Positions 11,470 to 32,668 of a stretch of DNA of 36,100 nt are shown here, in pieces. Position numbers and translations under genes: made by a program. The DNA is taken from the NCBI GenBank assembly GCA_001804705.1, contig MHAY01000058.1, positions 52,959-89,058 of the forward strand, given 5' to 3'. The stretch is from Ignavibacteria bacterium RIFOXYC2_FULL_35_21 (GTDB lineage: Bacteria; Bacteroidota; Ignavibacteria; Kapaibacteriales; UBA2268). The notes below the pieces were generated by a model that was not told the origin of the DNA, did not search any database, and worked only from the letters and a program-made list of their open reading frames with translations. Positions within the stretch are counted from its first letter, which is position 1. Each line of letters starts with the position of its first letter.

Positions 11470-11519
11470 TTTTATTTCCTTTATTTATTTATAAATTTTT
11501 TTGATTTCTAATAAAAAAA

Positions 11520-12731
11520 TTATTTCTCTACTTCTTCGCCTTCCTCGAAATATTCTTCATAGAATACGTATGGATTTTCCCTCGGATGAGCCACCATTTC
11601 AGCGATAGGCTCGAGTCCAACGGAATCGAGGAAGTTGCCCATGCCGACTCTCTGGATGAATTCTCCTATTCTTTCCCTGTTCTTGCCTTCTTCGCACCAG
11701 AGGTCCCACATGTTTTCGATAAGTTTCCAAAATTCCATTTCATCGAATGGCTCTTCTATTTTCATAAATGGAATCATTACAGACGACAGCAATGCACCTT
11801 CAACAATCGGTGCTTTTGAGCCTACCAGCACAACTGCTCCCCGGTCTTTTCCTGGTGCCAATGCTTTCGGCATAACATTTATACAGTGCATGCAGTGCAG
11901 GCAACTGCTATTGTCGATGTTTAAATCTTTTCCGTCCCATTCAATACACTTGCCGGGGCACATCATAACAATTTCTTTAACTATATCTGTACCGTTCTTT
12001 GCATACTCTCTGACTTTTTGCATATCTACCTGAATTTCATCTCTCCATGTTCCGATGATAGATATATCAGAACGTGCTACTGATGCTACACAGTCATTCG
12101 GACAGCCCGACATCTTGAACTTCATTTTATACGGGAATGCAGGCCTATGAAGTTCATCCTGGAACTTGTTCGTGATAAAATGTGTTAATGCCATAGTATC
12201 GTAGCATGCCCATTCGCATCTTGCCTTGCCACAGCAACAGCTTGGTGTCCTGACGTCGGAACCTGAACCGCCAAGGTCGAATCCTGCTGCAGTAAGTTTA
12301 TTGAAAACAGGCTCTAACTCTTCAGTCCTTGTTCCAAGGAAAATTATATCACCTGTCGAGCCATGCATATTCGTTAAGCCTGAACCATGAGCATCCCAGA
12401 TGTCACATAGTGTTCTGAGTGCTTCTGATGTGTAAAACCATCCTGAAGGCATATTAATACGCAATGTGTGAAAATGAGAAATATTCGGATATTTTTCCGG
12501 CAGGTCGGTATATCTGCCGATAATGCCACCTCCGTAACCCATCACTCCAACAATTCCTCCATGTTTCCAGTGGCCCATTTTTTCAGAATAGGACTGTTCG
12601 AGAAGTCCCAGTAAGTCATTAGACATGGCATTCCATTCGGCTGCTGCTTTGATTTCCTTAACAAAACTTGGCCATTCCCCTTTCTCGAGCTCATCGAGCA
12701 TTGGAGTGTCATATTTTTTGTCAACTGCCAT
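11520..12731 (-). CDS. dsrA: Dissimilatory sulfite reductase alpha subunit
   Basis: A 403-residue catalytic subunit, partner of DsrB. The siroheme/[4Fe-4S] ligands appear as C-x5-C in [12 protein letters not shown] (Cys166, Cys172) and C-x3-C in SGCPNDC (Cys210, Cys214). The ferredoxin domain has CPGKC (258, 262) and CLHCMHC (277, 280, 283). Siroheme-pocket residues are likely in [14 protein letters not shown] and in [14 protein letters not shown]. The protein is somewhat shorter than well-known sulfate-reducer DsrA (about 435). The ATG at 12731 is preceded by GGGAG. It is the first gene of dsrABD and has a 373-bp upstream region that must hold the promoter. Confidence 0.97.
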
Positions 12732-17066: not shown

Positions 17067-18227
17067 CTACGTTGTTTTTAACATTCTTCTTACCGATAAG
17101 GCAACTTTATAAAGTACTGTTACAATCAGCAGTCCTATTGCATAGATAGCAACTGAAATTGTAGCCTCAACCCATGTGGGCCAATAATCAGGCACATAGC
17201 CGAGTGGCGAGGGTATGAATCCTGTTACCACCATTCCTAATCCTTTGTCAATCCAGATTGACAGAAAGACTGCGATAGCCGCAATAATCAATAATTTTTC
17301 GTTCTTCCTGTATTTCGGAATCAATAAAAGAATCAGTGATACTATTGCCAATAAAGTCGAAAGCCACATCCATGGAACCAGCCTGTAATTGCCGTCTAAC
17401 CCGAAATAAAGAAACTGGAAATGCCTTGCATGGTCAGGCATTCCGCTGTAAAGTCCTGTGAAAATTTCCATCAACAAAAAGAAAATATTCAACAGCATTG
17501 CATAAGTTGTAATTATCGCAAGTTTCTGAATCGGTTCGCTTCCTACATCAAACCTTGTCATTTTTCTTAATAACAGGCAGAGCAAAATCAACAAAGCGGG
17601 ACCTGCAGAAAATGCAGTAGCGAGAAACCTCGGTGCCATAACTGCCGATAACCAGAATGGCCTTGCCGCCAAACCCTGGTACAAGAATGCAGTAACTGTA
17701 TGGATACTGACTGCCCAGGGAATTGAAAGTATCACGACAGGCTTGAGCCACTTTGGCGGTGCAATTCCTTTCTTCTCGCAATCGAGTGTATATCTGCTGA
17801 TAATTATATTCAAAACCAGATAACCTCCAAGTGACACTGAATCCCAGAACATCAGCGAATTTGGAGATGGATAAAGAAATATATTCACAACTCTCAGTGG
17901 TTGTCCCATATCAACAAAAATAAATAACATACACATAATGACAGCTCCTATCGCGAGGAATTCCCCAAGTATCGTGATTTTTCCAAAATTCTTATAATGA
18001 TGTACATAATATGGCAGTACAACCATCACGGCAGAAGCTGCAACACCAACAAGAAACGTGAACTGAGCTATATAAAATCCCCATGTAACATCCCTGCTCA
18101 TGCCGGTTACACCTAAACCTTTATTAAATTGATAAAGATAAGCGAGGACTCCGCATCCAATCAATACGAGCAGAAAAACTACCCAAGCCCAATATTTTTT
18201 ACTACCTGAAAATGCTTGTTCTAACAT
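17067..18227 (-). CDS. dsrP: DsrP, NrfD-like membrane subunit of the DsrMKJOP complex
   Basis: A 386-residue NrfD/PsrC-type integral membrane protein with about ten hydrophobic segments. It exchanges electrons with the menaquinone pool and works with the periplasmic subunits DsrO and DsrJ. Features typical of DsrP include the short N-terminus (KKYWAWVVFLLVLIGCGVLA), GMSRDVTWGFYIAQFTFLVG, and VSLGGYLVLNIIISRYTLD. No heme-binding pattern is expected. It is the last gene of the operon, 13 bases after dsrO, with CTCC/GGAG complementarity before its ATG. Confidence 0.95.
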   Translation of the reverse strand: MLEQAFSGSKKYWAWVVFLLVLIGCGVLAYLYQFNKGLGVTGMSRDVTWGFYIAQFTFLVGVAASAVMVVLPYYVHHYKNFGKITILGEFLAIGAVIMCMLFIFVDMGQPLRVVNIFLYPSPNSLMFWDSVSLGGYLVLNIIISRYTLDCEKKGIAPPKWLKPVVILSIPWAVSIHTVTAFLYQGLAARPFWLSAVMAPRFLATAFSAGPALLILLCLLLRKMTRFDVGSEPIQKLAIITTYAMLLNIFFLLMEIFTGLYSGMPDHARHFQFLYFGLDGNYRLVPWMWLSTLLAIVSLILLLIPKYRKNEKLLIIAAIAVFLSIWIDKGLGMVVTGFIPSPLGYVPDYWPTWVEATISVAIYAIGLLIVTVLYKVALSVRRMLKTT

Positions 18228-18240
18228 AGTTCCTTCTCCC

Positions 18241-19005
18241 TCATATTATATAATAAATTTCAGGTTGCGTTCCCAATTCGGGCTTTCTTCTCATTGTGAA
18301 ATTACTTCCTAACATAACCCTAATCTCTGAATTTGGGTCTTCGAGGTCGCCGAAAATCATTGCCTTGCTTGGGCAGGCTTCGACACATGCAGGCTTCATG
18401 CCTTTTGCCAGCCTCTCGTCACAGAAAGTGCATTTCTCGACGACTCCTCTTGTTCTTGTCGGAAACTCAGGATTCAACTCTTTCAGATGAGGCCTCGGCT
18501 CTCTCCAGTTAAAGCTTCTCGAACCATAAGGACAAGCCGCCATGCAATAGCGGCATCCGATACACCTGTGCCAATCCATCATTACGATTCCATCCTTGCG
18601 TTTCCACGTTGCCTGCGTGGGACATACATTCACACATGGCGGATTCTCACAATGATTACAGAAAAGAAGAGCCGGCTTATTTTTTATATCGGAAGGAATA
18701 AACTCGTTTTCCTGCTCGATAAAAGCATGTTCAAACTTCTCTTTCCAAATCCATTTGATTTCATCTTTCTTATTATCATAGTGAGGTACGTTGTGAGCAA
18801 GGTGGCATGCATCAATACACTTGGTACAGCCTTCTGTCTCGTTGCATTTTTTCAGGTCAATCAGCATTGCCCAGCGTCTGCCTGAAAAACCTTCGGATTT
18901 TCGTGCTTCAGATTCTGCAAACACTTTCAAGGTTTGTTTTCCGGCTAATCCTGCGGCGGCGGCTCCACCTGTTATCAGTAAAAATTTTCTTCTGTCAATA
19001 CTCAT
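18241..19005 (-). CDS. dsrO: DsrO, periplasmic iron-sulfur subunit
   Basis: A 254-residue ferredoxin-like protein with a twin-arginine signal (DRRKFLLITGGAAAAGLAG), so it is exported folded. Sixteen Cys fit four [4Fe-4S] clusters: Cys54, 60, 63, 67 (CNETEGCTKCIDAC); Cys116, 119, 124, 128 (CNHCENPPCVNVC); Cys148, 151, 154, 158 (CIGCRYCMAAC); and Cys192, 195, 207, 211. It carries electrons between DsrP and DsrJ. Its ATG overlaps the dsrJ stop by 4 bases, indicating translational coupling, and dsrP follows after 13 bases. Confidence 0.96.
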   Translation of the reverse strand: MSIDRRKFLLITGGAAAAGLAGKQTLKVFAESEARKSEGFSGRRWAMLIDLKKCNETEGCTKCIDACHLAHNVPHYDNKKDEIKWIWKEKFEHAFIEQENEFIPSDIKNKPALLFCNHCENPPCVNVCPTQATWKRKDGIVMMDWHRCIGCRYCMAACPYGSRSFNWREPRPHLKELNPEFPTRTRGVVEKCTFCDERLAKGMKPACVEACPSKAMIFGDLEDPNSEIRVMLGSNFTMRRKPELGTQPEIYYII

Positions 19006-19418
19006 TTCGTAACCCCCTTCTTCGCAAGCGACGGGTCAATGTGGCAGTCCCAGCAGTATGGATTTACATCGAGGTAATTATGACATTCGTCGCAGAATTT
19101 CGCTTTATTGTCATGACAACTCATGCATGTTTTTGTCAAGCTCATTTCGGCTTTTGCACCATTCAGCATATAGTAACTCCCATCAGCTTTCTTCAGAAAT
19201 CTTATATCCTGCCTCACGACTTTATCCCTCCATATGTCCAGCATCTCCATATGGTAGCCTTTCATGTACTCCTTGCTCTCGATGCATTTTCCGCTCTGAG
19301 GCAGTACGGGATTAGCCTTCACAGATGCTTTGCCTCCAGCCATATTAATCAGTATTGGTGATGTGAATGCAAGTATAAATATTAAAATCCCAATTAAAAC
19401 TTTCCCAGTGCCGTACAT
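19002..19418 (-). CDS. dsrJ: DsrJ, triheme cytochrome c
   Basis: A 138-residue protein with one N-terminal signal/anchor helix (5-25) and three CxxCH heme-c sites: CMSCH (98-102), CDECH (109-113) and CWDCH (122-126). Cys45 (SGKCIESKEYM) sits where DsrJ proteins carry the unusual Cys ligand of one heme. This composition is specific for DsrJ. It should sit on the periplasmic side of the DsrMKJOP complex. AAAGGAGG for its start lies inside the last codons of dsrK, and only one base separates the two genes. The 3' end overlaps dsrO. Confidence 0.95.
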   Translation of the reverse strand: MYGTGKVLIGILIFILAFTSPILINMAGGKASVKANPVLPQSGKCIESKEYMKGYHMEMLDIWRDKVVRQDIRFLKKADGSYYMLNGAKAEMSLTKTCMSCHDNKAKFCDECHNYLDVNPYCWDCHIDPSLAKKGVTK

Positions 19419-19419
19419 A

Positions 19420-21030
19420 TTATATATCCTCCTTTCCGGGTGAAGGATTATTTCTCAAATCGGTCTTTCTTTCATTCTCTCCCTTCATCACAAGAGCATT
19501 TCCCACAAGCTCGTGAATACCTCCAACCTCAACTCCCGGTACCCAATACTGCAGTAGTGGCGGCAATGTGGCTTTATCAATTGCACAAATGCAAGTGAGA
19601 AGATTCACTCCATTGTTTTCAGCAACATATTTAACAGCATTTGCTCTCGGGAAACCTCCCCTCATCCTCATTTCGAAATTTTCTTCGGTGCCCAGTCCCG
19701 CACCGCTTCCACAGCAGAAAGTCTGCTCACGGATTGTATTGTCGGGCATTTCTGTGAAGTTATTCAATACACTTTTCAAAATATACCTCGGCTCTTCGAG
19801 CAGCCCCATCCCTCTTGCAGGATTGCATGAATCGTGGAATGTTGCGTGCCAATGGTCGTTCCTGCTTTTATCTAATTTTATTTTATTATTCTTAATTAAA
19901 TCGGCTGTAAACTCGGTAATATGCACCATCTTAGTTGAACGGGTATTCTCAAACACAGTCCTTGTAATTGGTGATTTAGGCACTTCGAGGAAATCAGCAG
20001 GGCCGTTAAGTGTGTCCATATATTGATGAAGTATCCGCCACATATGCCCGCACTCCCCACCAAGAATCCATTTAACTTTGAGCCTTTTAGCTTCTGCATA
20101 TATTTTAGCATTCAATACCTTCATCAATTCATGCGAAACGAATGAACCGAAATTACCTCCCTCTGAGGCATAAGTTGAAAATGTAAAATCCAGGCCTATT
20201 TCGTGGAACAGAGCCATATAACCTAATAGCGTGTAATAATGAGGTTCTGCGAAATAATCGGCAGAAGGAATAACAAATAAAATTTCAGCGCCCTTCTTAT
20301 TTATTGGAATCTCTACCCTGATGCCTGTCAAATCTTCGAGGTCGTCTCTTGCAAATTCTATCGAATCCTTGAATCCATGCGGCTGAATGCCGAGGTGATT
20401 GCCTGTCCTGTGTGAGTTTGCAACAGGTGTCATCACCCAGTCAATATTAACTCCTATAAGGTTCATCAACTCGCGTGCAATGAAAGTAATTTCTGCCGTG
20501 TCAATCCCATAAGGACAAAAGACTGAACATCTTCGGCATTGCGTACATTGATAAAAATAATAGAACCATTCTTTCAATACATCAAATGTCAGTTCAGTTG
20601 CACCTGCCATCTTTGCCATTAGCTTTCCTGCGAGTGTAAACTCTTTCCTATAAACAGCCCTGAGCAGTTCTGCTCTCAGCACAGGCATATTTTTCGGGTC
20701 GCCCGAGCCAATGAAGAAGTGGCATTTATCAGCACAGGCTCCGCATCTCACGCATATATCCATGAACAATTTCAGGGAGCGGAATTTATCAATCCTTTCA
20801 CGAAAACCTTCAAGTATAATCTCTTTCCAGTTCTCAGGCAGCTTCCAGTTTTCTTCGTATGGCTGCCATTTTCTGGGATTCGGCTGATGTACATATTTCA
20901 GGCTTTCCGGATTTCCTGCATAATTATATGAGCCTTTTTTATATTCAACCCGAACATCCATCCAGTGCTTCTTAGGAGGTTTATAGCTGATTGTCTGAGC
21001 TAATTCTTCCGGTTTCATTTTAAGAGACAT
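19420..21030 (-). CDS. dsrK: DsrK, HdrD-like cytosolic iron-sulfur catalytic subunit
   Basis: A 536-residue protein related to heterodisulfide reductase subunit D, thought to reduce the DsrC trisulfide with electrons from DsrM. Two [4Fe-4S] motifs lie at Cys93, 96, 99, 103 and Cys162, 165, 168, 172. The CCG-type domain has Cys402 (HDSCNPARG), Cys439-440 (CCGSG) and C-x2-D at 482-485 (CAID). The last Cys of the HdrD pattern is Asp here, which I recall as normal for DsrK. The N-terminal extension (about 1-80) is also DsrK-like. It overlaps dsrM by 11 bases and is followed by dsrJ after one base. Confidence 0.95.
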   Translation of the reverse strand: MSLKMKPEELAQTISYKPPKKHWMDVRVEYKKGSYNYAGNPESLKYVHQPNPRKWQPYEENWKLPENWKEIILEGFRERIDKFRSLKLFMDICVRCGACADKCHFFIGSGDPKNMPVLRAELLRAVYRKEFTLAGKLMAKMAGATELTFDVLKEWFYYFYQCTQCRRCSVFCPYGIDTAEITFIARELMNLIGVNIDWVMTPVANSHRTGNHLGIQPHGFKDSIEFARDDLEDLTGIRVEIPINKKGAEILFVIPSADYFAEPHYYTLLGYMALFHEIGLDFTFSTYASEGGNFGSFVSHELMKVLNAKIYAEAKRLKVKWILGGECGHMWRILHQYMDTLNGPADFLEVPKSPITRTVFENTRSTKMVHITEFTADLIKNNKIKLDKSRNDHWHATFHDSCNPARGMGLLEEPRYILKSVLNNFTEMPDNTIREQTFCCGSGAGLGTEENFEMRMRGGFPRANAVKYVAENNGVNLLTCICAIDKATLPPLLQYWVPGVEVGGIHELVGNALVMKGENERKTDLRNNPSPGKEDI

Positions 21031-22036
21031 GGCTTTCCTCCTTATCTAACGGCATACCCGCTCCCTTCATTACTTTCCTGAACTCATCTTCGTATTCTTC
21101 GTAAGTATGCGGCTTCATCTTTAATTCATCAATCCATGGATTAACATGTCTTCGCATCCTGTTTGTATTCGCAAGGTTTCTTGTCGGACTCATGAAAATT
21201 CCTGACATATGAACAAGCTTGCTCATAGGGAAATAAATCAAAAGTGAGCAAACAAAGAAAAGATGAAGATAGAACCACAGACTTAATCCTTCGCTTGGTG
21301 CTGATGGTGCAAAGCTTAATATACCAAGCATTAGCTCCTTCACTGCAACAAGGTCTGTCTTGAAAAAATACCTCATCAGAATTCCTGTGATTGCAATACC
21401 TGCAATAAGCAGAAGCGGGAAATAATCAGACGGTAAAGATATATACCTGATTTTTGAATCGAAAACACGCCTGAAAAACAAGTATGTGAGAGCTGCTAAA
21501 ATCACAGCATTAGTCATATAGATAAGCGGCACCCATATTTGGAAAAAGCCGTCAATGTCCTGTAAAAAAGGTACGAAGAAGGGTATCGGCTGTGTGAAAA
21601 ACCTAAAATGTCTCAGAAAAATTATTAGAAACGACCAGTGAAAAGCAAGACTGAACATCCAAAGCCATTTGTTTGCTCCGTATGTCAGAATTGGCCCTTC
21701 CTTCAGTTCTGCTTTCGTATTTCTGAACAAAGAACGGAAAAACAGCACTTCCAGAGCCATCCTGCCAAGCACGCCAAGGTATGAACTCGGATTATCGAGA
21801 CGGTTCTGCTTAATGAATGACAATGATTTTTGCTGTCCTCCTGTTGTAGGAATGCGAAAGGGAACCGGCGAGCGAGCCCATCTTACAATTCGCACAATGC
21901 TCCCAACAATAAATAATGTTATTGCAATATATGGTATCACCACTGCGAAAATGTAATTCAATCCGGACACGTTCGCTCCGAGCAAGCCGAGCAATATGAG
22001 TGCGGCTACTGCAACTAACGAAAACCAGATTCCCAT
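21020..22036 (-). CDS. dsrM: DsrM, cytochrome b (NarI-like) subunit
   Basis: A 338-residue membrane protein with about six helices related to NarI/HdrE, expected to bind two hemes b and take electrons from menaquinol for DsrK. Candidate heme ligands are His in FHWSFLIIFLRHFRF, in WFYLHLFFVCSLL and in PMSKLVHMSGIF. The last block, including MSPTRNLANTNRMRRHVNPW, is strongly conserved in DsrM. The C-terminal tail is hydrophilic and faces DsrK. It is the first structural gene of the complex; the RsbRD-like gene lies 93 bases upstream, separated by an A+T-rich tandem repeat. Confidence 0.95.
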   Translation of the reverse strand: MGIWFSLVAVAALILLGLLGANVSGLNYIFAVVIPYIAITLFIVGSIVRIVRWARSPVPFRIPTTGGQQKSLSFIKQNRLDNPSSYLGVLGRMALEVLFFRSLFRNTKAELKEGPILTYGANKWLWMFSLAFHWSFLIIFLRHFRFFTQPIPFFVPFLQDIDGFFQIWVPLIYMTNAVILAALTYLFFRRVFDSKIRYISLPSDYFPLLLIAGIAITGILMRYFFKTDLVAVKELMLGILSFAPSAPSEGLSLWFYLHLFFVCSLLIYFPMSKLVHMSGIFMSPTRNLANTNRMRRHVNPWIDELKMKPHTYEEYEDEFRKVMKGAGMPLDKEESHVS

Positions 22037-22840: not shown

Positions 22841-23689
22841 CTATTTTTTTTCTGTAAGAAATAAGTCTGCTTGAGTTGCTGTATCTTGCTTCTTTTTTTT
22901 AATATGTTGTTTTTGTTTAGGTGCCTTCTTAGAAGTGTAAATTTGACTCTCTTCTGCAATTATCATTTTACTATCCTTCTTAACATAGATAGACGTTTCA
23001 TCCTTCAATGGGAAATTGACAGTATGTGAGGGGATTTTAAAATAATTTTTAAAAGGACCTCCCCAATAATTAAGAAGCCATTTGACAAAGTTTGATCTTT
23101 CATCTATTGTTCCTATTGGGTCATTGTAAAGTAGAAAATTTTTAATTTGTGGTGGCTCAACAAACAGTAATGAAAAATTGTCTTTGCTGTAAAACGCTTG
23201 TCGTAAATCCATTAGTAATCTACCCAAAGCATTTATGCCTGTAAATATTGTCCCATCTTCATCTGGAATTGCACCCCAAAAATTATCCTTTGCTGAATTT
23301 TCAACAATATTTTTTAATCCAGTTTCGTGAAGAATTGACCCAAATGAAACAAAGTTTTGAGCAAGTTTTATACTTATACACCACTTCATTATTTTAAGTC
23401 TGACTTCATACCAATCTTCTCTACTTTTCTTTTTGTTTGTACTACTTATCATCTTTACCATCATGGGGCTTTTTTGCTCAATAATTTTTTGTTGTATTTC
23501 AGGTAAGTGAGGAAATCTACAAGCTTGATATAATGCCTCAGACGTTCGTATATCAACTCCATTAATATACAAAGGAAATCCAGTTGCCATATTCGAAAGC
23601 GCTCCATAAGCTTCATTATTTTTCTTGAATATGCAGGAGTTTTCTTTTTGATAAACTCTGATATCTTTCTGGTCAACTTTATTTTTCAT
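22841..23689 (-). CDS. NADAR-domain protein (YbiA-like N-glycosidase fold)
   Basis: This 282-residue protein carries a NADAR domain at about 25-185: AYGALSNMATGFPLYINGVD, TSEALYQACRFP, SPMMVKMISSTNKKKSREDW, DNFWGAIPDEDG and GINALGRLLMDLR, matching YbiA/RibX block by block including the FWG and LG..LM motifs. NADAR enzymes cleave N-glycosidic bonds, in riboflavin intermediates or in ADP-ribosylated guanine of DNA, where they serve as antitoxins to DarT. The last about 95 residues are not recognised and end in a Lys/Gln-rich tail. It lies 51 bases downstream of a phosphoribosyltransferase-like gene, so a two-gene conflict module is likely. No DarT is seen nearby. Confidence 0.85.
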   Translation of the reverse strand: MKNKVDQKDIRVYQKENSCIFKKNNEAYGALSNMATGFPLYINGVDIRTSEALYQACRFPHLPEIQQKIIEQKSPMMVKMISSTNKKKSREDWYEVRLKIMKWCISIKLAQNFVSFGSILHETGLKNIVENSAKDNFWGAIPDEDGTIFTGINALGRLLMDLRQAFYSKDNFSLLFVEPPQIKNFLLYNDPIGTIDERSNFVKWLLNYWGGPFKNYFKIPSHTVNFPLKDETSIYVKKDSKMIIAEESQIYTSKKAPKQKQHIKKKKQDTATQADLFLTEKK

Positions 23690-23740
23690 TTTTCAAATTT
23701 CTTAAAATGGTAAATAACCCAAATCCTCTTTATTCTTGTT

Positions 23741-24856
23741 TTAAAAAAAGTCAAAGTCTTCTGAACTTTGTGTTGTAGTTGCAATATCTCCATGGCCATA
23801 ACTAACAAATTTTCTTTCGAATAATGGATGCCAATTATGAGATGAATACCAAAATACAAGTGGAGTATTAAAAGGTACATTCCTATAACTGAAGCAAAGG
23901 GTGCCAAAGCCAAAATTCTTATGGCTCGACAAACCATAACCTAATGGTCTCATTCTTGTATTGCGATTAACACCTGCAAGCTCGTATAATCTCATTCCTT
24001 GTTGGAGCATAATGTTTTCAAAGCGAATACGATTTTCTTTTGATGAAAACAAAGTTTCGGTTGCTGGACGACTCGGATCACGATAAACACCTATATCATT
24101 TTCAACATTCAAGCTCGCCGAGTAGTCAAGTATGTTTTGTTGTTGATTATCCTTAATCGGAAAGAGAAAGTCAAGTTTTGAATTATTATTATTAAAATCA
24201 TTTTCAATCAGTTTAAAATAATATTCATCATAATAATTGCTGATATCTTCTTTCAGATGATTTTTCAATCGAGATTTGAATTTATAATAATTGTGTTTGT
24301 GAATTATAAAGTATAGTATTAGAAGCTTTGCTTTGTTGTTTTTTAAATAATCAAAGTGGGTTTGATTTTTTATCTTTGTATAAAGCCATCCCTTCTTTTC
24401 TTCGCCTTCAATTTTTGCAAGTCCTTTAAACAAAGTATCACCAGTGCATAATAAATCATCCAAATAAATAAAGTAACGAGGATTTGTTGGGTTATGATAA
24501 GAAAGATTAAATTCAAATTTTGTAAGTGAAATATCTCTTAGTAAAGCAAGAAAGTCCTTTTGACTTTTGCCTTCAGGTTGATGGTCAATGAATGTTGAAA
24601 CCTTAAGAAAGTTAGAAGGCGTAGTGAATTTAAGAATTTCAGACATCTTTTTGATCATATATTCCAATCCTCGAACGATTGTCAGTTTTGAAAAATAGCG
24701 ATGAGGTAAAATAAATTTGAGTTCAGTGAGTATGAATATTCTATCAGTTTCAGGAAATTGTTTTATCCATCTGTCAATACGATTTTCTGACATTTTTCCC
24801 TCATCATGTCGATAGTCTTTGATGATCTCGTAAATGTCGTTGATTAGTTGTTCCAT
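23741..24856 (-). CDS. Phosphoribosyltransferase-like (PRTase-CE type) protein
   Basis: A 371-residue soluble protein. The key block is RYFIYLDDLLCTGDTLFKGL near 130-150, which has the form of a PRPP-binding loop of phosphoribosyltransferases (hydrophobic strand, two Asp, TGDT). N-terminal helices (about 1-75) and a C-terminal domain rich in aromatic and Gly residues (GYGLSSHKNFGFGTLCFSYR, FWYSSHNWHPLF) frame it. This fits the PRTase-CE family reported in predicted prokaryotic conflict systems; the reaction is unknown. It heads a two-gene unit with the NADAR gene downstream and is divergent from the nuclease pair. Composition is very A+T-rich compared with the dsr genes, consistent with acquisition by transfer. 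Confidence 0.7.
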   Translation of the reverse strand: MEQLINDIYEIIKDYRHDEGKMSENRIDRWIKQFPETDRIFILTELKFILPHRYFSKLTIVRGLEYMIKKMSEILKFTTPSNFLKVSTFIDHQPEGKSQKDFLALLRDISLTKFEFNLSYHNPTNPRYFIYLDDLLCTGDTLFKGLAKIEGEEKKGWLYTKIKNQTHFDYLKNNKAKLLILYFIIHKHNYYKFKSRLKNHLKEDISNYYDEYYFKLIENDFNNNNSKLDFLFPIKDNQQQNILDYSASLNVENDIGVYRDPSRPATETLFSSKENRIRFENIMLQQGMRLYELAGVNRNTRMRPLGYGLSSHKNFGFGTLCFSYRNVPFNTPLVFWYSSHNWHPLFERKFVSYGHGDIATTTQSSEDFDFF

Positions 24857-25274: not shown

Positions 25275-26375
25275 ATGACAGAATCATTAGTACAATGGAC
25301 TCTTCTAAATAATAAAAGCTTATTAAGTGAAATATTAGATTTTAATATTTCGAATAAAATCGGTCAAGAAATAAAAACTGACTTTGGAAGAATTGATTTT
25401 GTTTTATCAAATAGACAAGGAAATCATCTCATTGTAGAATTAGAGACAATTCTGAATAATAGAAATAAATTAGAATATTGCTTCAATCAAACATTGAATT
25501 ATAAAAATGTTAAATTTTCTGAATCTACACAATATTGCATTCTCTATGCTGATGAAACCAATCAGAAGTATAAAAATAAAATTGAAGAATTTGGTTTAAC
25601 GAACGATATCTTAATAAAAACTTATTCCTTAAATAACATTAAACAACTTTATTCAAAAACAATTGAAAGATTAAGTTTAAATGTTGGTTTAGCTCTCCCC
25701 AATCCAAAAAACTATACAATTTGCTACCTGCGATGGTTAAACAAGATAATGAAAACTTTTGTTGATTTAAATAAAAGGATTTTAACTTATGATGAAATAT
25801 TTATACCATTTCAAAATCAAACGAATAGTAAAACTAATTTTAATTGTTATGAAAAAATTGCTTCGGATTTTGAATTAATTGAAATTAAAAATAATAAATA
25901 CTATTTAACTAAAAACGGTGATGATTTTATTAAGAATTTAAGCCCTTATGTATTTTTAACCTCAAACCCATCATCAATTGATTTAACGAATGAACAAAAA
26001 AGATTAATATTAAAAATTTTAACTAATGGTAACTGGGAAAATAAAGTTCATAAAATAAATATTTATTGGTTTATGAGATTTTTGGAGGTTACAAATGGTA
26101 CATGGTTACCAAAAAATCATAATATTGAAAGTGCAAAGTTGGAAATTGCTAAGGGGCTATTTAAGGTATCCTATAAGGGTAGAACGATGTTTGAATTTTT
26201 AACTTGGTGTTATAATTATTGTAATGAATTAGGTCTCGTTGAGAGAATAAAATCAACGAGTGAATATGACCAAATTATTCTAACACCTTTGGGAGTAGAA
26301 GTAAATAATATTTTTTCTTTAGATTTGACACTTAAAAAAAGTAGGATGAACTTAAATTTTCAATATTTAGAATAA
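25275..26375 (+). CDS. PD-(D/E)XK nuclease-like protein with winged-helix modules
   Basis: This 366-residue protein has an N-terminal nuclease-like core at about 1-110: IGQEIKTDFGRIDFVLSNRQ, then NHLIVELETILNNRNKLEYC. Asp39 (GRID) and the VELET strand would provide the acidic metal ligands, although the usual Lys is replaced by Thr or lies elsewhere. Residues 150-240 and 260-350 look like two winged-helix domains (YLTKNGDDFI and IILTPLGVEV are wing-type strands). This order of cleavage domain plus DNA-reading domains is that of some type II restriction enzymes, but I cannot name the family. The next gene starts inside its stop codon (TAATG). No methyltransferase is present in the window. Confidence 0.6.
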   Translation: MTESLVQWTLLNNKSLLSEILDFNISNKIGQEIKTDFGRIDFVLSNRQGNHLIVELETILNNRNKLEYCFNQTLNYKNVKFSESTQYCILYADETNQKYKNKIEEFGLTNDILIKTYSLNNIKQLYSKTIERLSLNVGLALPNPKNYTICYLRWLNKIMKTFVDLNKRILTYDEIFIPFQNQTNSKTNFNCYEKIASDFELIEIKNNKYYLTKNGDDFIKNLSPYVFLTSNPSSIDLTNEQKRLILKILTNGNWENKVHKINIYWFMRFLEVTNGTWLPKNHNIESAKLEIAKGLFKVSYKGRTMFEFLTWCYNYCNELGLVERIKSTSEYDQIILTPLGVEVNNIFSLDLTLKKSRMNLNFQYLE

Positions 26376-26893
26376 TGTTCAATTATCAAATACAAAATAT
26401 ATTAAAGGAAAATCCACGTATTCAAGAAAAACTTGGGAAAACTTTGTACAATTGTATTAATAATGATGTGAAAACAATTGCAGTTGAAGTCTCAGAACAG
26501 AACTGCATTGACTATATTCATAACCTTACAATATATAGAAACCTTGATGGATATGTTAGAAAAAAATCTGTTATTTACGATGGTTTAGCTAAACTATTTC
26601 CAGTTTTAAAGTTTGAAGAAATTGAACCAGATTATGAACATTCAATTGATATTGATTATTTAGCAAAAGTAGAAAATAAATTTGTTGGATTTCAAATAAA
26701 ACCTGTTACTGCAAAACATAGTTTCGGCAATTATTCTCCAACTGAAAGGATGAAAGCCAGTTTCAAGGATTTTGAGGAAAAATTTGGAGGAAAGGTATTC
26801 ATAATATTTAGTTTAGATGGAGAAATCGGTAACAAAGAAGTAATTGATGAAATAAAATCGGAAATTGAAAGATTGAAAATGACATCAATTTAA
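26375..26893 (+). CDS. Small PD-(D/E)XK-type restriction endonuclease-like protein
   Basis: A 172-residue protein whose core reads HSIDIDYLAKVENKFVGFQI followed by KPVTAKHSF: an Asp-rich strand, then Q-x-K on the next strand, the arrangement of a PD-(D/E)XK active site with Gln in place of Glu. Upstream DGYVRKKSVIYDGLAKLFP and downstream KASFKDFEEKFGGKVFIIFS are the flanking helices and strand. It reminds me of MjaI-type restriction enzymes, but this is not certain. It overlaps the preceding gene by one base (TAATG), so the two are co-translated. Its stop overlaps by 4 bases the stop of an opposing hicB-like gene. A+T-rich, probably transferred. Confidence 0.6.
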   Translation: MFNYQIQNILKENPRIQEKLGKTLYNCINNDVKTIAVEVSEQNCIDYIHNLTIYRNLDGYVRKKSVIYDGLAKLFPVLKFEEIEPDYEHSIDIDYLAKVENKFVGFQIKPVTAKHSFGNYSPTERMKASFKDFEEKFGGKVFIIFSLDGEIGNKEVIDEIKSEIERLKMTSI

Positions 26894-27194: not shown

Positions 27195-27425
27195 TTATTT
27201 TCTTATCATATTATTAAACTCATCCAGAGTCAAACCTGCTTCTCGAATTATCCCTCTTAAAGTGCCTTTTGCTATTTCTTTATGATTAGGGATAGTTAAT
27301 CTTCTGAAAGGATGATAAGTACATCTGAGTATTATATGACTGCCGGATTGATGGTCAATTTCATAGCCTATTGATTTGAGTACCGAACATAATACCTTCC
27401 CAGACAGAACGGGGAGTTTGCCCAT
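27195..27425 (-). CDS. hicA: HicA/YcfA-like mRNA interferase toxin
   Basis: This 76-residue HicA toxin has the complete signature: LSGKVLCSVLKSIGYEIDHQ, then the catalytic SGSHIILR, then LTIPNHKEIAKGTLRGIIRE. The His in GSH is the expected catalytic residue. The fold is the double-stranded RNA-binding type that cleaves mRNA. It is preceded by its antitoxin gene with a single-base gap, and GAGG before its ATG lies inside the end of hicB. The order hicB-hicA is the reverse of the pair at 1668-2133. Confidence 0.92.
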   Translation of the reverse strand: MGKLPVLSGKVLCSVLKSIGYEIDHQSGSHIILRCTYHPFRRLTIPNHKEIAKGTLRGIIREAGLTLDEFNNMIRK

Positions 27426-27426
27426 G

Positions 27427-27633
27427 TCAAACCTCTAAAACTTCTTCATAAATCGGAGGAGGCACCGGTTCATTATGTTTTCTTAAACTTTCAATGTAAC
27501 CGGTAATAGCATCTTTGATATTCAAGAGTGCTTCACCCCGGGAATAACCTTGTGATATGCATCCTGGTAATGAAGGGCATTCAGCAACAAACACTCCATC
27601 TTCATCCTGTTCGATTAATACTCTGTATTTCAT
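27427..27633 (-). CDS. hicB: HicB-like antitoxin
   Basis: A 68-residue HicB antitoxin with the clear motif YRVLIEQDEDGVFVAECPSL then PGCISQGYSRGEAL, and an amphipathic helix (NIKDAITGYIESLRKHNEPV). It is complete for the short class that has no separate DNA-binding domain. It is the first gene of the pair with hicA and lies between the defence-like island and the response-regulator gene. It should bind and block HicA. Confidence 0.9.
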   Translation of the reverse strand: MKYRVLIEQDEDGVFVAECPSLPGCISQGYSRGEALLNIKDAITGYIESLRKHNEPVPPPIYEEVLEV

Positions 27634-27691: not shown

Positions 27692-27781
27692 CTAAATTAA
27701 ATTCCTCTTCAGCTTCACCACAAACTTTGCTCCCTGTCCAAGTTCAGATTCGACTATGTTTTCGGCGCCATGCTCTTTATC
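27692..27781 (-). pseudogene. Remnant of a histidine kinase C-terminus
   Basis: Directly after the receiver gene, in a shifted frame overlapping its stop codon, about 29 codons read DKEHGAENIVESELGQGAKF followed by VVKLKRNLI and a stop. This is the last part of a histidine-kinase ATPase domain (compare AAHGGKIEIQSELKKGSEFT in the neighbouring kinase). No start or other kinase parts remain in any frame, so it appears to be the tail of a deleted or recombined kinase gene. Confidence 0.65.
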
Positions 27782-28160
27782 AATCACCTAATAGTTTTTT
27801 TACTAAGTTAATTAATTCACTTCCCTCTACCGGTTTTGATATATAACCCTCAGGAGGAGGGACTTGCTTTCGTGATGAAATGAAAGTCTGGAATTCATCT
27901 GAAATTCCTGTTATAATAATAATTGGAATCGATTTCCATTTCTCATTCCCCTTAATAGTCCGATAATATTTCACTCCCGACATCTCGGGCATTGTAATAT
28001 CGAGAGTAATAAGGTCGGGAATTGTTTCGTTTAGCTTTTCTAAACCTGTCTCACCGTTATCGGCTGTTATGGTATTGTATCCGTTGTCCTCAAGTATGTT
28101 TGAGAAGAATGTGAGTGTGTCGGGCTCATCGTCGATAATAAGAATTGATTTTTTACTCAT
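27780..28160 (-). CDS. Receiver-only response regulator, partner of the adjacent kinase
   Basis: A 126-residue CheY-like protein with Asp10/Asp11, phospho-acceptor Asp54 (LITLDITMPEMSG), Thr in IIIITGIS, and Lys in YISKPVEG. Before the Lys it carries an insertion, SSRKQVPPPEGYISKP. The receiver fused to the iron-sulfur protein upstream has the matching YDRPVPMPEGYLDKP, so the two receivers are close relatives and probably served by the same kinase. It lies 20 bases after the kinase gene and is the last intact gene of the operon. No DNA-binding output domain is present. Confidence 0.93.
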   Translation of the reverse strand: MSKKSILIIDDEPDTLTFFSNILEDNGYNTITADNGETGLEKLNETIPDLITLDITMPEMSGVKYYRTIKGNEKWKSIPIIIITGISDEFQTFISSRKQVPPPEGYISKPVEGSELINLVKKLLGD

Positions 28161-28180: not shown

Positions 28181-29608
28181 TTATTTAATATCAATTGATG
28201 ACAAATCAATGCTTCGCTTTGGTATTGTAACTGTAAACTCGCTGCCCTTCTTCAATTCGGATTGAATTTCAATTTTTCCCCCATGTGCGGCAGTAATTTT
28301 ATTGGCAATAAATAATCCTAATCCCGTTCCTTCGCCCCCTTTGGATGAGAAAAACAGGCTGAAAGCTTTTTCGCGGGTTTCCCTGTCCATGCCAATTCCA
28401 TTATCAATAATTTTAAAGATAATATTTTCATCATTTCCGAATAATTGAAATTTTACAGTATGGTTTTCCTTACTTTTATCAATCCGGCAGGCATCTATCG
28501 AATTTTCAATCAGGTTAATCAATAATGCCCTGACAGCCTTTCTGTCACAATCAAAATCACCTGCATTATCATCCAATTCACAGATAAACCCGATTTTCAA
28601 CTCTATGGCTTTGTCCTTTACTGATTCACAAGCCTGATTGGCTAACTCAAGAGCAGAAACCTGTTCCCAAAATGGTTCGCGGTCTTTAGCATAATAAAGA
28701 ATATCCATAACCATGCTTTTAATTCTGTTGATGTTTCTGAGAACGATTTCCCAGCCTTGTGTCAATCGTTCTTTGTTGTCGTTTTCTATTCCCTTGTTCA
28801 CAAGGTAAATACCGCCGTTAAGCCCGTTTAAAAGTCCTTTGATGCCATGCGAAATAGAACTAATGAGTAATCCTATTGACGTTAATTGGTCTTGCAATTC
28901 CCTAAGCTCCGTAATATCCAGGCTCATTTCAATCACATGACTAATTTTACCGTTTGCATCCCTGATAGGAGCAGTATGAACCATACAATTAATTGTTCTG
29001 CCGTCTAAAGTGGTTACCACTTCTTCGTGTCTATGAATTGTCCCGTCTTCAAAAGTTCTTCTAACAGTGCATGGGTAGCATTCTTCTTTGCGGTGTTTAT
29101 AAACTTCATAGCATTTGCATCCGAGGTAACATCCAAAAGTCTCACGATGAAGTCTGTTAGCATTAATTATATTAAAATCTTTATCTTGAATAGAAATAAA
29201 ACATGGTACTTCTTCAAAGAGCATTTTATAACGCTCCTGGTTCTCTTTGAATTCCCGCTGTAAATCCTTAATGTCAGTAACGTCGGTTGACATTTCCATG
29301 ACTGCAACTATGTCTCCATCATCATCTCTGATAGCTGTTGTATTGATTATAACAGACACCTTCCTGCCATTGAGACATTGAACCAGCTCTTCACTCGAAA
29401 GGGAGACTCCATCCCTGAAGGTCTTTTCGACAGCACAATACTCACATTTATCAGCCCTATGCTTATAAACCTGATAGCAATACCGGTCTTTGTAATTCCC
29501 AAAATCCGTAACAAATTTATTGTTTGCCAGGATAACTTTCAAATCCCTGTTCTGTACTGTCAGGTAACAGGGCATGGATTCGAAATACTGTTGAAATGGA
29601 AATTCCAT
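28181..29608 (-). CDS. Soluble histidine kinase with two Cys/His-motif PAS domains
   Basis: A 475-residue kinase without membrane segments. PAS 1 (about 1-115) and PAS 2 (about 125-240) each contain C-x5-H-x4-C-x2-C followed by TF-x-DG: Cys44, His50, Cys55, Cys58 and Cys166, His172, Cys177, Cys180. These could bind a metal, Fe-S cluster or heme, or form disulfides. The kinase core has His254 in SISHGIKGLLNGLNGG and an ATPase domain with LINLIENSIDACR, DNGIGMD and GGEGTGLGLFIANKI, all intact. It starts 13 bases after the Fe-S/receiver fusion gene and is followed by a receiver gene, so it is very likely the kinase for both receivers. Confidence 0.92.
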   Translation of the reverse strand: MEFPFQQYFESMPCYLTVQNRDLKVILANNKFVTDFGNYKDRYCYQVYKHRADKCEYCAVEKTFRDGVSLSSEELVQCLNGRKVSVIINTTAIRDDDGDIVAVMEMSTDVTDIKDLQREFKENQERYKMLFEEVPCFISIQDKDFNIINANRLHRETFGCYLGCKCYEVYKHRKEECYPCTVRRTFEDGTIHRHEEVVTTLDGRTINCMVHTAPIRDANGKISHVIEMSLDITELRELQDQLTSIGLLISSISHGIKGLLNGLNGGIYLVNKGIENDNKERLTQGWEIVLRNINRIKSMVMDILYYAKDREPFWEQVSALELANQACESVKDKAIELKIGFICELDDNAGDFDCDRKAVRALLINLIENSIDACRIDKSKENHTVKFQLFGNDENIIFKIIDNGIGMDRETREKAFSLFFSSKGGEGTGLGLFIANKITAAHGGKIEIQSELKKGSEFTVTIPKRSIDLSSIDIK

Positions 29609-29621: not shown

Positions 29622-31346
29622 TTATCCTACTTCTAAAATTTTTCTTACATTAAATAGCAAAGTATCCGGATCAACCGGTTTATCAAGATAGCCTTCCGGC
29701 ATTGGAACCGGGCGATCATAAATCAACCTTCTTAACTCCGGCCTTCCGGTGATAATACACACTTTTGTAGAAGCAATTTCGGGATTTCTCCTCAAATTTT
29801 CAAATACCCAACCACCATCCTTACCCGGCATGTTGATATCTAATGTCATCAATTCCGGTTTCTCTTTTAGGGCTATACTGATAGCATCTTCTCCATTTGA
29901 GGCTTCGAATACAATAGCACCATTATCTTCCAGAACGGATTTAAAGAATACAAGTATATCCGGTTCATCATCCACAACAAGTATTTTTCTTCCGGCTAAT
30001 GGAGCTTTTTTGATTTCGACAGTTGGTACCTCAGGAGCTGTGATTTTTTCAGGTATCACAAGAGCATTTGCAACAAGATTCACTAATTGTTTTACCTCCA
30101 TTTTTAAATCATAGTGTTTTATCAAATCTGTCAATCCATCAACGCAGTTGTGGCAAGAAGTAACGACAATATTAGCTCCGGTTGCCTTCAACTGATCTGC
30201 TTTAACTTTTGCAGATTTTAATCTCCTTGAAGTATATTCGGACATAGACATTGCTCCGCCACCACCCGTACAACAGTAATTTTCATTTCTGTTTGGGTAC
30301 ATCTCACGGAAATCGCTGACAACTAAATTTAACAATTCTCTTGGTTCTTCATATAGCCCGCAGCTACGGGCATTGTTGCAGGAATCATGGAATGTATAAG
30401 AACCAGTATTTTTAGATTTATCAACTTTAATCTTGCCTTCTTTGATGTAATTAAGCATTGTAAATACTGAACTTTCCATAATGAAATCCTGGTCTATTCC
30501 TGCCCAATTTGGACCTTCACATCTTGTAGAGCGATATCCATGGCCGCATTCTGAAATAACAAGCTTTTTCCCTCGTAATTCTTTTAATTTTTCATATACT
30601 CTGATAGCGACGGCGCCTCCAAGTGCATCATCGCCTGAAAATAATCCAAAGTTAGTCATATCCCATCCTTCGCTGGGCATAGTCCAGTTTTCTCCGGCTA
30701 TATGGAATATTTTAGCGGCATCAGATATAGTTCTCGGGTCATATTTTACTTCCCTTGGATTAATAGTATAAACAATATCAGCATCTAATTTATCAATTGG
30801 AATAACAGCAGTTTCATCGTCGAATTCAGATTGCATTTCCTCACTCAACCAATCTAAAGTATCTATATAATCTTCCGGCAGCACTCCCATTTGATTACCT
30901 ATTTCCCATTGGTCTTTACTAACAACTGCTACCCCTTCAGGCATGACACCAACTGAAACAAGTAATCCGCGTAAGGCACGGTTAAATGTAGCGAAATCAA
31001 CTCCCATAGGGCAGTTGATTGAACATCTTCTGCAATTTGTACATTTACCAAATGATATATCTTTAAGTTCTTCAAGTTCTTCGTCAGTGAATATGCTTTT
31101 TGCTCCTACCCACCATGGGAATACTCTGCCTGTCCAGTCGTAATGACGTTTAAAAATCTTCCTCATCCTGTCGGCTTTGTATGCCGGCGCATAAGTAGGG
31201 TCATCGGGATTTGTAAGTACGTAGTGACAGCTTTCCGTACACATTCCGCAGTGCACACATGCAACAAGTGAACCGACCATCTGCCTGTTTAATTTTTTTG
31301 CCATTCCTTCTATTAACAAATTGGCTTTATACGATCTTTCTTTCAT
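29622..31346 (-). CDS. HdrD/DsrK/TmcB-like iron-sulfur protein fused to a receiver domain
   Basis: This 574-residue protein has two parts. Residues 1-430 are an HdrD-like oxidoreductase: [4Fe-4S] motifs at Cys30, 33, 36, 40 and Cys102, 105, 108, 112, then a full CCG-type motif of Cys323, Cys358-359 and C-x2-C at 398-401, the kind that binds the non-cubane disulfide-cleaving cluster in HdrB/HdrD. Residues 452-574 are a response-regulator receiver with Asp459/460, phospho-acceptor Asp503 (MTLDINMPGKDG), Thr in CIITGRP, and Lys in YLDKPVD. The link (431-451) is Pro/Glu/Lys-rich. The reading frame is continuous, so the fusion is real unless the assembly is wrong. A cytochrome b gene lies upstream and a kinase downstream. 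Confidence 0.93.
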   Translation of the reverse strand: MKERSYKANLLIEGMAKKLNRQMVGSLVACVHCGMCTESCHYVLTNPDDPTYAPAYKADRMRKIFKRHYDWTGRVFPWWVGAKSIFTDEELEELKDISFGKCTNCRRCSINCPMGVDFATFNRALRGLLVSVGVMPEGVAVVSKDQWEIGNQMGVLPEDYIDTLDWLSEEMQSEFDDETAVIPIDKLDADIVYTINPREVKYDPRTISDAAKIFHIAGENWTMPSEGWDMTNFGLFSGDDALGGAVAIRVYEKLKELRGKKLVISECGHGYRSTRCEGPNWAGIDQDFIMESSVFTMLNYIKEGKIKVDKSKNTGSYTFHDSCNNARSCGLYEEPRELLNLVVSDFREMYPNRNENYCCTGGGGAMSMSEYTSRRLKSAKVKADQLKATGANIVVTSCHNCVDGLTDLIKHYDLKMEVKQLVNLVANALVIPEKITAPEVPTVEIKKAPLAGRKILVVDDEPDILVFFKSVLEDNGAIVFEASNGEDAISIALKEKPELMTLDINMPGKDGGWVFENLRRNPEIASTKVCIITGRPELRRLIYDRPVPMPEGYLDKPVDPDTLLFNVRKILEVG

Positions 31347-31443: not shown

Positions 31444-32124
31444 TTACTTAGATTGTCTTGACCCTCTTAACGGGAAGACTCCGCGATGTCCCATAGTCCG
31501 TCCAAGATAATACCTTGTAAATGGATAATACAAATAATGTGATATTTTACTGAAGGGTACATATATTAAGAAAAATGCAGTGAGCCAAAAGTAAATTATC
31601 ATTATTGTTTCTCCGTTTTCGGGTTTATTTGGAACAGATAGAAAAGCCGTTAAGAACCAAGTGGTAATTAAAATAAGTGAGAAATAATCATCAGGTGTGC
31701 TTATAGCACGCATGACTTTTTTTGAAAATCTACGGATTATCCTGAAAATACCGACAATAAATGCGGCACCTATAACGACCTGAAAGAGGTATATGACCCA
31801 AACAGGTTTCATAGTATCAGGAGCATAAGGGATAAGAAAAGACATTAGAATTGCGAAAGTAACACCCAAATGAAAAACAATGAATTGTGAGTAAATAATA
31901 AAGTGCTTTCGTGTACTTTCCATTGCCCAAGGCATCATGATATTCATTAACGAATATAAGATACCTTTTTTCTTATTCGTATCAGGAGGTCCGGTCGGCA
32001 TTTGCCTGTCTCTGCCGGCTTTATATCTTGTCAGCCAGAAAATTCGTATTGCATAGACACAAGCCATCACTAATAATGCAATTTCCTGTAATCTGTGTTC
32101 TGCGAAATGTAAACTTTCACTCAT
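31444..32124 (-). CDS. DsrM/TmcC-like cytochrome b membrane protein
   Basis: A 226-residue membrane protein with about five helices, related to the NarI-like subunits DsrM, TmcC and HdrE. Candidate heme ligands are His in RKHFIIYSQFIVFHLGV and in FSKISHYLYYPFTRYYLG; the latter parallels PMSKLVHMSGIF of DsrM at 21020-22036. It is over 100 residues shorter than that DsrM. It should link the quinone pool to the cytosolic Fe-S/receiver protein encoded 97 bases downstream. It lies 13 bases after the macro-domain gene, so all five genes probably form one operon. Confidence 0.85.
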   Translation of the reverse strand: MSESLHFAEHRLQEIALLVMACVYAIRIFWLTRYKAGRDRQMPTGPPDTNKKKGILYSLMNIMMPWAMESTRKHFIIYSQFIVFHLGVTFAILMSFLIPYAPDTMKPVWVIYLFQVVIGAAFIVGIFRIIRRFSKKVMRAISTPDDYFSLILITTWFLTAFLSVPNKPENGETIMIIYFWLTAFFLIYVPFSKISHYLYYPFTRYYLGRTMGHRGVFPLRGSRQSK

Positions 32125-32137: not shown

Positions 32138-32668
32138 TCATCCTTTATTTTCAAGAATATTTGAAAAAGCATTATATTCCCGGTTATCATTTGCACATAT
32201 TATGATTTCTTGAATCCCGGTTGAGTTTGTCAGATATTTTGTAAAGGATTCAATCATAATTGAAGAGCAGACATCTAAAGGAATTCCATAAAAACCGGTT
32301 CCCATCAAAGGAAAAGCTATTTGCTTTATTCCATTTTCGTCAGCGCATTTAAGGGTATTTTCTATAGTATTCAATAATTTATTTTTTAGATCTGGCTCCT
32401 GGAATTCAGGTCCTATGGCATGAATAATATGTTTAGCTTTTAATTCACCGGCCTTTGTTAATACTGCATCTGATGTTTTAGCTCCACCGATTTTATCGAG
32501 TTCAGCTTTTATTGTAGGTCCTCCCCTCGTAGAAATTGCAGTTCCATACCCGGCTCCTAAAACCAAATCTTTCCTTGCATAAAATACAAATGCCTCGACT
32601 TCCATCGCTGATAAATCATCCTTGAGGAGTTTCGCAGGAATACTATTAATATTAAAATTCAAAGACAT
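32138..32668 (-). CDS. Macro-domain (ADP-ribose-binding) protein
   Basis: A 176-residue single macro domain. Typical parts are VEAFVFYARKDLVLGAGYGT with a Gly-rich loop at the ADP-ribose site, GELKAKHIIHAIGPEF, and QIAFPLMGTGFYGIPLD. The usual N-A-A/N-N-x-x-L of the first loop is replaced by Y-A-R-K-D, so hydrolase activity is uncertain though ligand binding is likely. Macro domains bind or remove ADP-ribose and related nucleotides. It is the first gene of the redox-signalling operon, with AAAGGAA before the ATG and 634 bp of spacer upstream. Confidence 0.9.
   Translation of the reverse strand: MSLNFNINSIPAKLLKDDLSAMEVEAFVFYARKDLVLGAGYGTAISTRGGPTIKAELDKIGGAKTSDAVLTKAGELKAKHIIHAIGPEFQEPDLKNKLLNTIENTLKCADENGIKQIAFPLMGTGFYGIPLDVCSSIMIESFTKYLTNSTGIQEIIICANDNREYNAFSNILENKG

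Follow-up and report, generated by a model that had tools for sequence, protein, structure and literature searches.

What does a two-component receiver do when it is built into a respiratory iron-sulfur protein? We address this question for a gene at positions 29622-31346 of a 36,100-nucleotide stretch of Ignavibacteria bacterium RIFOXYC2_FULL_35_21 (contig MHAY01000058.1, positions 52,959 to 89,058; "the window" below means this whole stretch), which an earlier reading of the letters alone, here called the original prediction, had described as a single-frame fusion of an HdrD/DsrK/TmcB-like module with a response-regulator receiver. Two-component systems are usually viewed as controlling genes or flagella, and a receiver joined to a respiratory iron-sulfur subunit would be a direct, fast control point on anaerobic electron flow. 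We found that the observation is confirmed and is larger in extent than first reported, since the fusion recurs in 85 aligned rows and forms part of a conserved cassette, which in the window consists of the following genes:

29622-31346, minus strand: fusion protein of 574 amino acids (aa), with a 4Fe-4S dicluster part, a CCG part, a linker and a receiver
31444-32124, minus strand: membrane anchor of 226 aa, TmcC/HmcE-like and NarI-like
32138-32668, minus strand: macro-domain protein of 176 aa (PF01661, 84.7 bits)
28181-29608, minus strand: PAS-PAS histidine kinase of 475 aa, with PAS_4 and HATPase_c above their cut-offs
27780-28160, minus strand: free receiver of 126 aa, DVU0259-like (Response_reg, 80.6 bits)

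On translation, the minus-strand frame at 29622-31346 runs from an ATG start through all 574 codons with no internal stop, and the plus strand across the same interval holds many stops. The dicluster part occupies residues ~28-117 and is followed by the CCG part (317-401), a variable linker (~431-452) and the receiver (453-572). In the domain search that had been proposed as a check, the profiles of both halves matched above their curated cut-offs: Fer4_8 at 28-116 (42.0 bits, cut-off 27), CCG at 317-401 (45.0, cut-off 20.6) and Response_reg at 455-564 (63.3, cut-off 30.2). The CCG motif (C323, CC358-359, C398/C401), the predicted phospho-acceptor D503 and the two 4Fe-4S motifs, which comprise C30/33/36/40 and C102/105/108/112, had all been identified correctly. 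By its domains and cysteines the protein belongs to the broad CCG/HdrD-DsrK-like iron-sulfur superfamily, and its C-terminal part qualifies as a receiver, with the acidic pair, Asp, T/S and Lys all kept. The curated families nearest to the iron-sulfur part are HmcF (NF045711, 349.3 bits against a cut-off of 750), TmcB (NF045724, 311.3 against 735) and DsrK (NF045796, 245.0 against 400), none of which it passes; the module can be specified as HmcF/TmcB/DsrK-like. An AlphaFold2 model of the fusion reached a mean predicted local distance difference test (pLDDT) of 78.3 and a predicted template modelling score (pTM) of 0.60, with a confident receiver and linker residues 436-446 at pLDDT < 50. The best structural match of the iron-sulfur part was EtfD of Mycobacterium smegmatis (PDB 9ojn, E-value (E) 1.3e-11).

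Relatives were collected by a scan of one genome per species, in which 305 stretches encode relatives; the best 80 were kept, a choice that favours full-length fused copies, and all 80 of these best matches extend past residue 539. The alignment comprised 85 fused rows (the window, L009, L010-L014 and 78 of L023-L101), from which we excluded L022, which is L009's contig, and L091, whose frame goes from the iron-sulfur part to an apparent kinase end and then to a shifted receiver. D503 is conserved in 85/85 rows, D459, D460 and K556 are conserved in the 84/84 rows with a letter, and the usual switch pair is present as T or S at position 533 (85/85) and Y or F at position 553 (84/84). The receiver is therefore intact in every aligned row covering these residues, and no aligned homologue with a letter there lacks the Asp or the Lys. 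The fourteen cluster-type cysteines are likewise present in each aligned row covering them. Mean identity to the window over the 79 main-family rows is 79% in the iron-sulfur part and 62% in the receiver, and the linker varies across the alignment from 11 to 58 residues. Record titles of the relatives name Kapaibacterium, Zixiibacteriota, Deltaproteobacteria, Syntrophaceae, Acidobacteria, Calditrichaeota, Planctomycetota, Gemmatimonadota, Poribacteria, Elusimicrobia, Myxococcota, Riflebacteria, LCP-89 and others; the labels of the aligned fused homologues, which are those of metagenome-derived genomes, cover >10 phyla.

A less biased sample came from 132 genomes that share the phylum of the Zixiibacteriota record G061, with 31 matches at E <= 1e-150. 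We found that 29/31 reach residue 572 or beyond, and in the other two (G434 and G461) the frame is broken in or before the receiver. The phylum to which the Syntrophus record G060 belongs was represented by 247 genomes: 10 contain an open frame as long as the fusion, of which nine (all but G066) were inspected in fetched loci and proved fused, and 7 contain an unfused close relative. Frame breaks are few (L091, and G434 and G461 of the 31). Together, the 85 fused homologues with conserved receiver residues rule out a chance or assembly fusion, and the fusion is genuine, not a local accident.

The cassette order in the window is macro gene, anchor, fusion, kinase and receiver, with gaps of 13, 97, 13 and 20 nucleotides, and an unprompted clustering of neighbours across loci returned four families at fixed positions. 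Over 80 main-family loci, counted by domain coordinates with contig-end cases dropped, the fusion has an anchor beside it in 79/79, a macro gene in 77/77, a kinase in 74/76 and a free receiver in 59/68; the profiles were made from the neighbours of the same loci, so that these counts show neighbour homology and nothing beyond. They supersede an earlier synteny count via starts of open reading frames (ORFs), which gave 74/79, 76/76, 73/76 and 59/69 for anchor, macro gene, kinase and receiver. One of the two loci scored without a kinase, L071, shares its contig with L175, and there a kinase match does occur farther along, on the opposite strand. The kinase at 28181-29608, proposed from the start as the likely partner of the fusion, is supported in this role. 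The original prediction stood as to fusion, module, receiver and kinase, and overlooked the recurrent cassette with its macro protein, anchor and second receiver; it also missed that the carriers mostly have dissimilatory sulfite reductase and that unfused relatives have a separate receiver in the operon. We rejected the idea that the anchor is fused into the same polypeptide in fusion ORFs of 791-937 aa, which have no anchor match and whose extra N-terminus is an out-of-frame extension. Neighbour clusters 7, 11 and 12, which overlap or replace cassette genes on the opposite strand, were judged by eye to be antisense artefacts of the simple gene caller.

A Pfam search with the anchor gave no match, and its score against TmcC, 52 bits, lies below the cut-off of 240. 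Its only invariant histidines are H85 (83/83) and H196 (84/84), enough for at most one haem; NarI-type anchors have two pairs of haem-ligating histidines. In a Foldseek search with the anchor model, the top eight matches were NarI (prob 1.00, E 4e-3 to 9e-3, TM-score ~0.5, root-mean-square deviation ~10) and the ninth was EtfD (E 0.19, prob 0.97). Since both the iron-sulfur part and the anchor match EtfD, this protein, which serves electron-transfer flavoprotein and has no receiver, is a structural precedent for such an anchor and iron-sulfur pair.

The kinase is soluble by domain content. Its HisKA match is below the cut-off (16.7 against 26.9 bits), and H254 is kept in 76/76 rows. Both PAS domains carry conserved cysteines (C44 and C55 in 79/79, C58 in 78/78, C136 in 77/78, and C166, C177 and C180 in 78/78), a pattern that suggests metal or iron-sulfur binding. 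The macro protein has the macro fold with its phosphate loop, and Asp18 is found in 69/75 rows with a letter. At the positions that we take to be the catalytic Asn and Asp of MacroD, located by alignment with MACROD2, the Asn column is never N in the 75 rows with a letter and the Asp column is Gly in 75/75. The protein thus shares its fold with MacroD-type proteins and lacks their catalytic pair, and with both residues replaced it does not classify as a MacroD ADP-ribosyl hydrolase.

The free receiver keeps D54 (59/59) and K109 (58/58), and no DNA-binding part is present in either cassette receiver. Both score highest against the curated family DVU0259 (NF045717), whose gene presumably lies near tmc, with 73.8 bits for the fused receiver and 99.7 for the free one, below the cut-off of 160. 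Clusters of transcription-factor genes occur in the fetched stretch of 53/85 loci, not all of them directly upstream: helix-turn-helix proteins at 19, Rrf2, which is named after the hmc operon, at 16, sigma-54 activators at 12 and MerR at 8. One member of each cluster was verified by Pfam. At L117 a sigma-54 activator (9627-11375, minus strand) lies upstream of the macro gene, and its N-terminal part is arsenate-reductase-like (99 against 174 bits).

In known receiver complexes, alpha1 is the main kinase contact. The fused and free receivers of the same locus share an alpha1 identity of 0.54, compared with 0.37 against 52 other receivers (58 pairs); outside alpha1 the corresponding values are 0.33 and 0.32. 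The alpha1 identity between fused and free receivers (0.54) equals about that among free receivers (0.53), whereas alpha4 and its loop are 0.70 identical among fused receivers and 0.29 between fused and free. The simplest reading of these alignments would be one kinase with two targets and two outputs. The iron-sulfur part or the anchor would be the target of the fused receiver, because its switch residues are kept, its output face is conserved and no other output domain is present. The docking helix, the conservation of the output face and the retained switch residues incline us to a signal that runs to the enzyme, and it may also run from the enzyme.

The window itself encodes the machinery of dissimilatory sulfite reduction, in a genome of 4.15 Mb that is 97.75% complete:

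10387-12731, minus strand: dsrA, above its curated cut-off, and a sulfite-reductase-type protein, probably dsrB
17067-22036, minus strand: dsrMKJOP, all above their curated cut-offs

Among 60 relatives of the window, dsrA was found in 7/7 fusion carriers (G000-G003, G018, G022 and G028, from four genera) and in 3/53 non-carriers, and in the G061 phylum it was found in 26/31 carriers and 21/101 non-carriers, in both cases without correction for the relatedness of the genomes. Fisher values for these two samples, like the p-value for the alpha1 comparison, count related genomes as if independent and are not taken here as probabilities. A search of 50 carrier genomes from the 79 loci found it in 41/50; 13 of these genomes overlap with the 31 of the G061 phylum, and the remaining 37 gave 31/37. 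At 16/79 loci the fetched flank contains DsrK-family genes, and 19/19 DsrK-like proteins checked match the DsrK family at E <= 1e-60. As side observations, the dsr genes of the window sit in a genome with sorting domains of the type IX secretion system type, and an 82-aa ORF directly after the probable dsrB (10122-10370, minus strand) has no match in Pfam or NCBIfam.

Two further forms of the protein bear on the history of the fusion. Five genomes of the window's family have a diverged fused form, accompanied by anchor and kinase, in which identity is 57-59% for the iron-sulfur part and 32-42% for the receiver. An unfused form occurs in seven genomes of the G060 phylum (L167-L173). In the five loci with enough contig, the anchor gene is followed by the iron-sulfur protein, a Usp-like gene, a HEAT-repeat gene, the receiver and a PAS-kinase-type gene, in that order; the Usp-like and HEAT-repeat genes were confirmed for one locus. 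A quick tree built from 94 rows of the iron-sulfur part (18 of them chosen from the main fused form; long-branch warnings) placed the fused and unfused forms in one clade (support 96), beside and not within the clade of HmcF and HmcF-like proteins (99), with the unfused form adjoining the main fused form (99). In a receiver tree, the main form and L176 formed one clade (97), and the separate receivers and the five diverged ones fell elsewhere with weak support. The iron-sulfur tree needs two changes, which may be either one early fusion and a later loss or two fusions. That the separate receiver of the unfused form is a detached fused receiver is not supported, as it groups elsewhere in the weak receiver tree.

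The window's genome has two further CCG-type loci, L005 and L006, with unfused receivers and PAS proteins nearby. L006 (4124-10865, plus strand) encodes in a row a flavoprotein above the PRK12771 cut-off, DsrC, a membrane protein, a DsrK-like protein, a PAS protein in which no kinase domain was recognised, and a DVU0259-like receiver. In L005 (6698-11184) the CCG protein is also unfused: a receiver lies directly upstream of it, a divergent PAS kinase and receiver are present, and HmcB/TmcC-like genes adjoin.

The nearest precedent is the hmc operon, in which hmcF can adjoin a separate receiver gene. In Desulfovibrio vulgaris, Hmc resembles the cassette in joining a NarI-related anchor (HmcE) to a cytosolic CCG iron-sulfur protein (HmcF), with a receiver gene in the operon (excerpts of PMC10924467); unlike the cassette, it keeps the receiver separate and has the extra periplasmic and membrane subunits HmcA-D. 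A macro gene or a dedicated kinase is not mentioned in the excerpts of hmc descriptions consulted. In excerpts of PMC4162548, a CheY-like receiver and a UspA protein of D. hydrothermalis adjoin hmcF in a table of changed genes, in the same two comparisons. Among our 16 loci above the HmcF cut-off (L137-L152), a receiver match within the fetched 1.5-kb flanks was frequent, not constant (7/16: L140, L141 and L145-L149). Rrf2-type genes are a further likeness, since Rrf2 is a regulator of hmc and such genes are likewise found near the cassette (16/85 loci). Tmc is related in that TmcB is the second-best curated family of the iron-sulfur part and TmcC the best of the anchor, all below cut-offs. 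DsrMK of DsrMKJOP, encoded in the same window, similarly pairs a membrane subunit with a CCG iron-sulfur subunit but has no receiver, and DsrK falls in another clade than the fusion.

A full-text search of open-licence papers in PubMed Central (PMC) found no description of the fusion or the cassette, in agreement with the original prediction, which knew of no characterised protein of this design. Term searches in PMC6338057, PMC10591310 and PMC7509429, which deal with Kapabacteria sulfate reduction and with dsrAB genomes, turned up no response regulator, Hmc or Tmc, and one in PMC3333781 likewise gave no hit. The parts are known; their covalent joining, a kinase with two receivers and a constant macro partner are undescribed in the open literature searched.

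The cassette and its conservation, the intact residues, the alike docking helices with distinct output faces, the NarI-like and EtfD-like folds and the dsrA association were computed, and they make the proposed function a well-supported hypothesis, not a demonstration. We tentatively favour, as a real possibility somewhat short of probable, a thiol/disulfide electron-transfer module of two subunits, anchored in the membrane and linked to menaquinone, that works beside dissimilatory sulfite reduction; the fusion would be its cytosolic subunit, and phosphorylation of the fused receiver its switch. The NarI-like anchor (31444-32124) would exchange electrons with the quinone pool, and the two 4Fe-4S clusters would connect it to the CCG cluster, at which a sulfur partner in the cytosol, most likely DsrC, would be reduced or oxidised. 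The kinase, itself cytosolic, would sense redox or sulfur state via its cysteine-bearing PAS domains and phosphorylate both the fused and the free receiver. Once D503 is phosphorylated, the receiver may bind to or release the iron-sulfur part or the anchor through its alpha4-beta5-alpha5 face, which would gate electron flow, as the original prediction had proposed; the free receiver would convey the same signal to a second target, and the macro protein would add a nucleotide input such as ADP-ribose or NAD status. We infer the quinone and DsrC partners, the cofactor of the PAS cysteines, the phosphotransfer, the gating and its sign, and the ligand and role of the macro protein. A bolder version, which we regard as possible and more doubtful, is that of a widespread respiratory electron-transfer complex with a phosphorylation switch built into its catalytic subunit, in which a dedicated redox-sensing kinase sets menaquinone-DsrC/sulfite flux within seconds, the second receiver broadcasts the signal and a non-catalytic macro protein reports ADP-ribose or NAD.

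If this gated module is real, two-component phosphorylation acts directly on a respiratory enzyme rather than on transcription, and the kinase may turn part of the carriers' respiration up or down. The carriers are metagenome-derived genomes, mostly with sulfite reductase genes, for which the cassette would be a testable handle on the control of sulfur respiration beyond Desulfovibrio. It also bears on an old loose end, the role of the receiver gene in the hmc operon. The constant macro partner (77/77 testable main-family loci) is an unexpected clue that may tie nucleotide status to this electron branch.

Several results weigh against the gated module. At its pTM of 0.60, the fusion model gives no reliable placing of the receiver relative to the iron-sulfur part. 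The NarI matches of the anchor are modest, and just two of its histidines are invariant. The likeness in alpha1 is not strongly locus-specific, at 0.54 within the same locus and 0.50 between different loci, and the fused receiver is also 0.47 identical there to the L006 receiver, from the window's genome; part of the likeness is therefore inherited. As to composition, the free receiver is absent from 9/68 testable loci and the kinase is absent beside the fusion in 2/76, a macro match was found in 0/5 of the fetched stretches of the diverged fused form, and the unfused form has no macro gene in the fetched stretch. The dsrA association is uncorrected for relatedness, as said above, and dsrA was not seen in 5/31 and 9/50 carriers, which may be incomplete bins or real exceptions. 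Finally, 21/101 non-carriers have dsrA, and the cassette is therefore not required for sulfite reduction.

Of the other explanations, the one that survives best, although we consider it unlikely, is a redox sensor, in which the anchor and the iron-sulfur part would read the quinone/thiol pool, the fused receiver would dock the kinase and alter its kinase/phosphatase balance, and the free receiver would be the output. It would account for a kinase-docking helix that is alike in both receivers and for a kinase whose domain content marks it as soluble, hence lacking its own membrane input, and the unfused form keeps a receiver and a PAS-kinase gene in its operon. However, such a sensor would have no output in the 9/68 testable loci that have no free receiver near the kinase, and it would seem to need neither all the clusters nor an iron-sulfur part that is 79% identical on average. 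Moreover, the PAS cysteines would already provide a redox input.

Gated electron transfer to another cytosolic disulfide or electron carrier, with the dsr link reflecting a shared anaerobic life style, appears distinctly unlikely to us. The association with dsrA is strong in two separate samples and holds in 31/37 further carriers, and the nearest families come from sulfate respiration complexes. On the other side stand the carriers in which dsrA was not seen (9/50), the non-carriers that have it (21/101), the absence of dsr genes from most fetched flanks (DsrK family in 16/79) and a structural neighbour, EtfD, that serves another pathway. Excerpts of PMC4215793 describe the cytosolic partner of both Hmc and Tmc as not known and mention DsrC or ferredoxin as suggestions.

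More improbable still is a receiver that merely tethers, dimerises or acts as a phosphate sink, with electron transfer constitutive and regulation transcriptional, as by Rrf1 and Rrf2 of hmc. In excerpts of PMC10924467, rrf1 and rrf2 are termed regulators of hmc expression, and excerpts of PMC13344952 state that Rrf1 (DVU_0530) influences regulation of the hmc operon. Such a role would fit with the transcription-factor genes in the fetched stretch of 53/85 loci, the existence of unfused relatives and the variable linker of 11-58 residues, but neither receiver has a DNA-binding part, and the fused output face is among the best-conserved regions (alpha4 and loop, 0.70), which is unexpected for a sink. 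Last, an accidental or assembly-borne joining of adjacent genes can be dismissed as having next to no probability, for against the interrupted frame of L091 and the two broken frames among the 31 of the G061 phylum stand 85 fused frames with conserved receiver residues, three of them in records titled chromosome (L067, L070 and L089).

Other genes of the window lie near the cassette. About 3 kb from it, a NADAR-domain gene adjoins a PRTase-CE gene (22841-24856, minus strand), a pair that is possibly a nucleotide-linked conflict system. The region 25275-26893 (plus strand) holds a gene for an MjaI-type restriction endonuclease, preceded by a gene without assignment, and in L112 a related ORF of 169 aa was noticed on visual inspection close to the diverged fusion. 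Directly after the cassette, at 27195-27633 (minus strand), lies a pair of genes for a HicA toxin and a HicB-like antitoxin.

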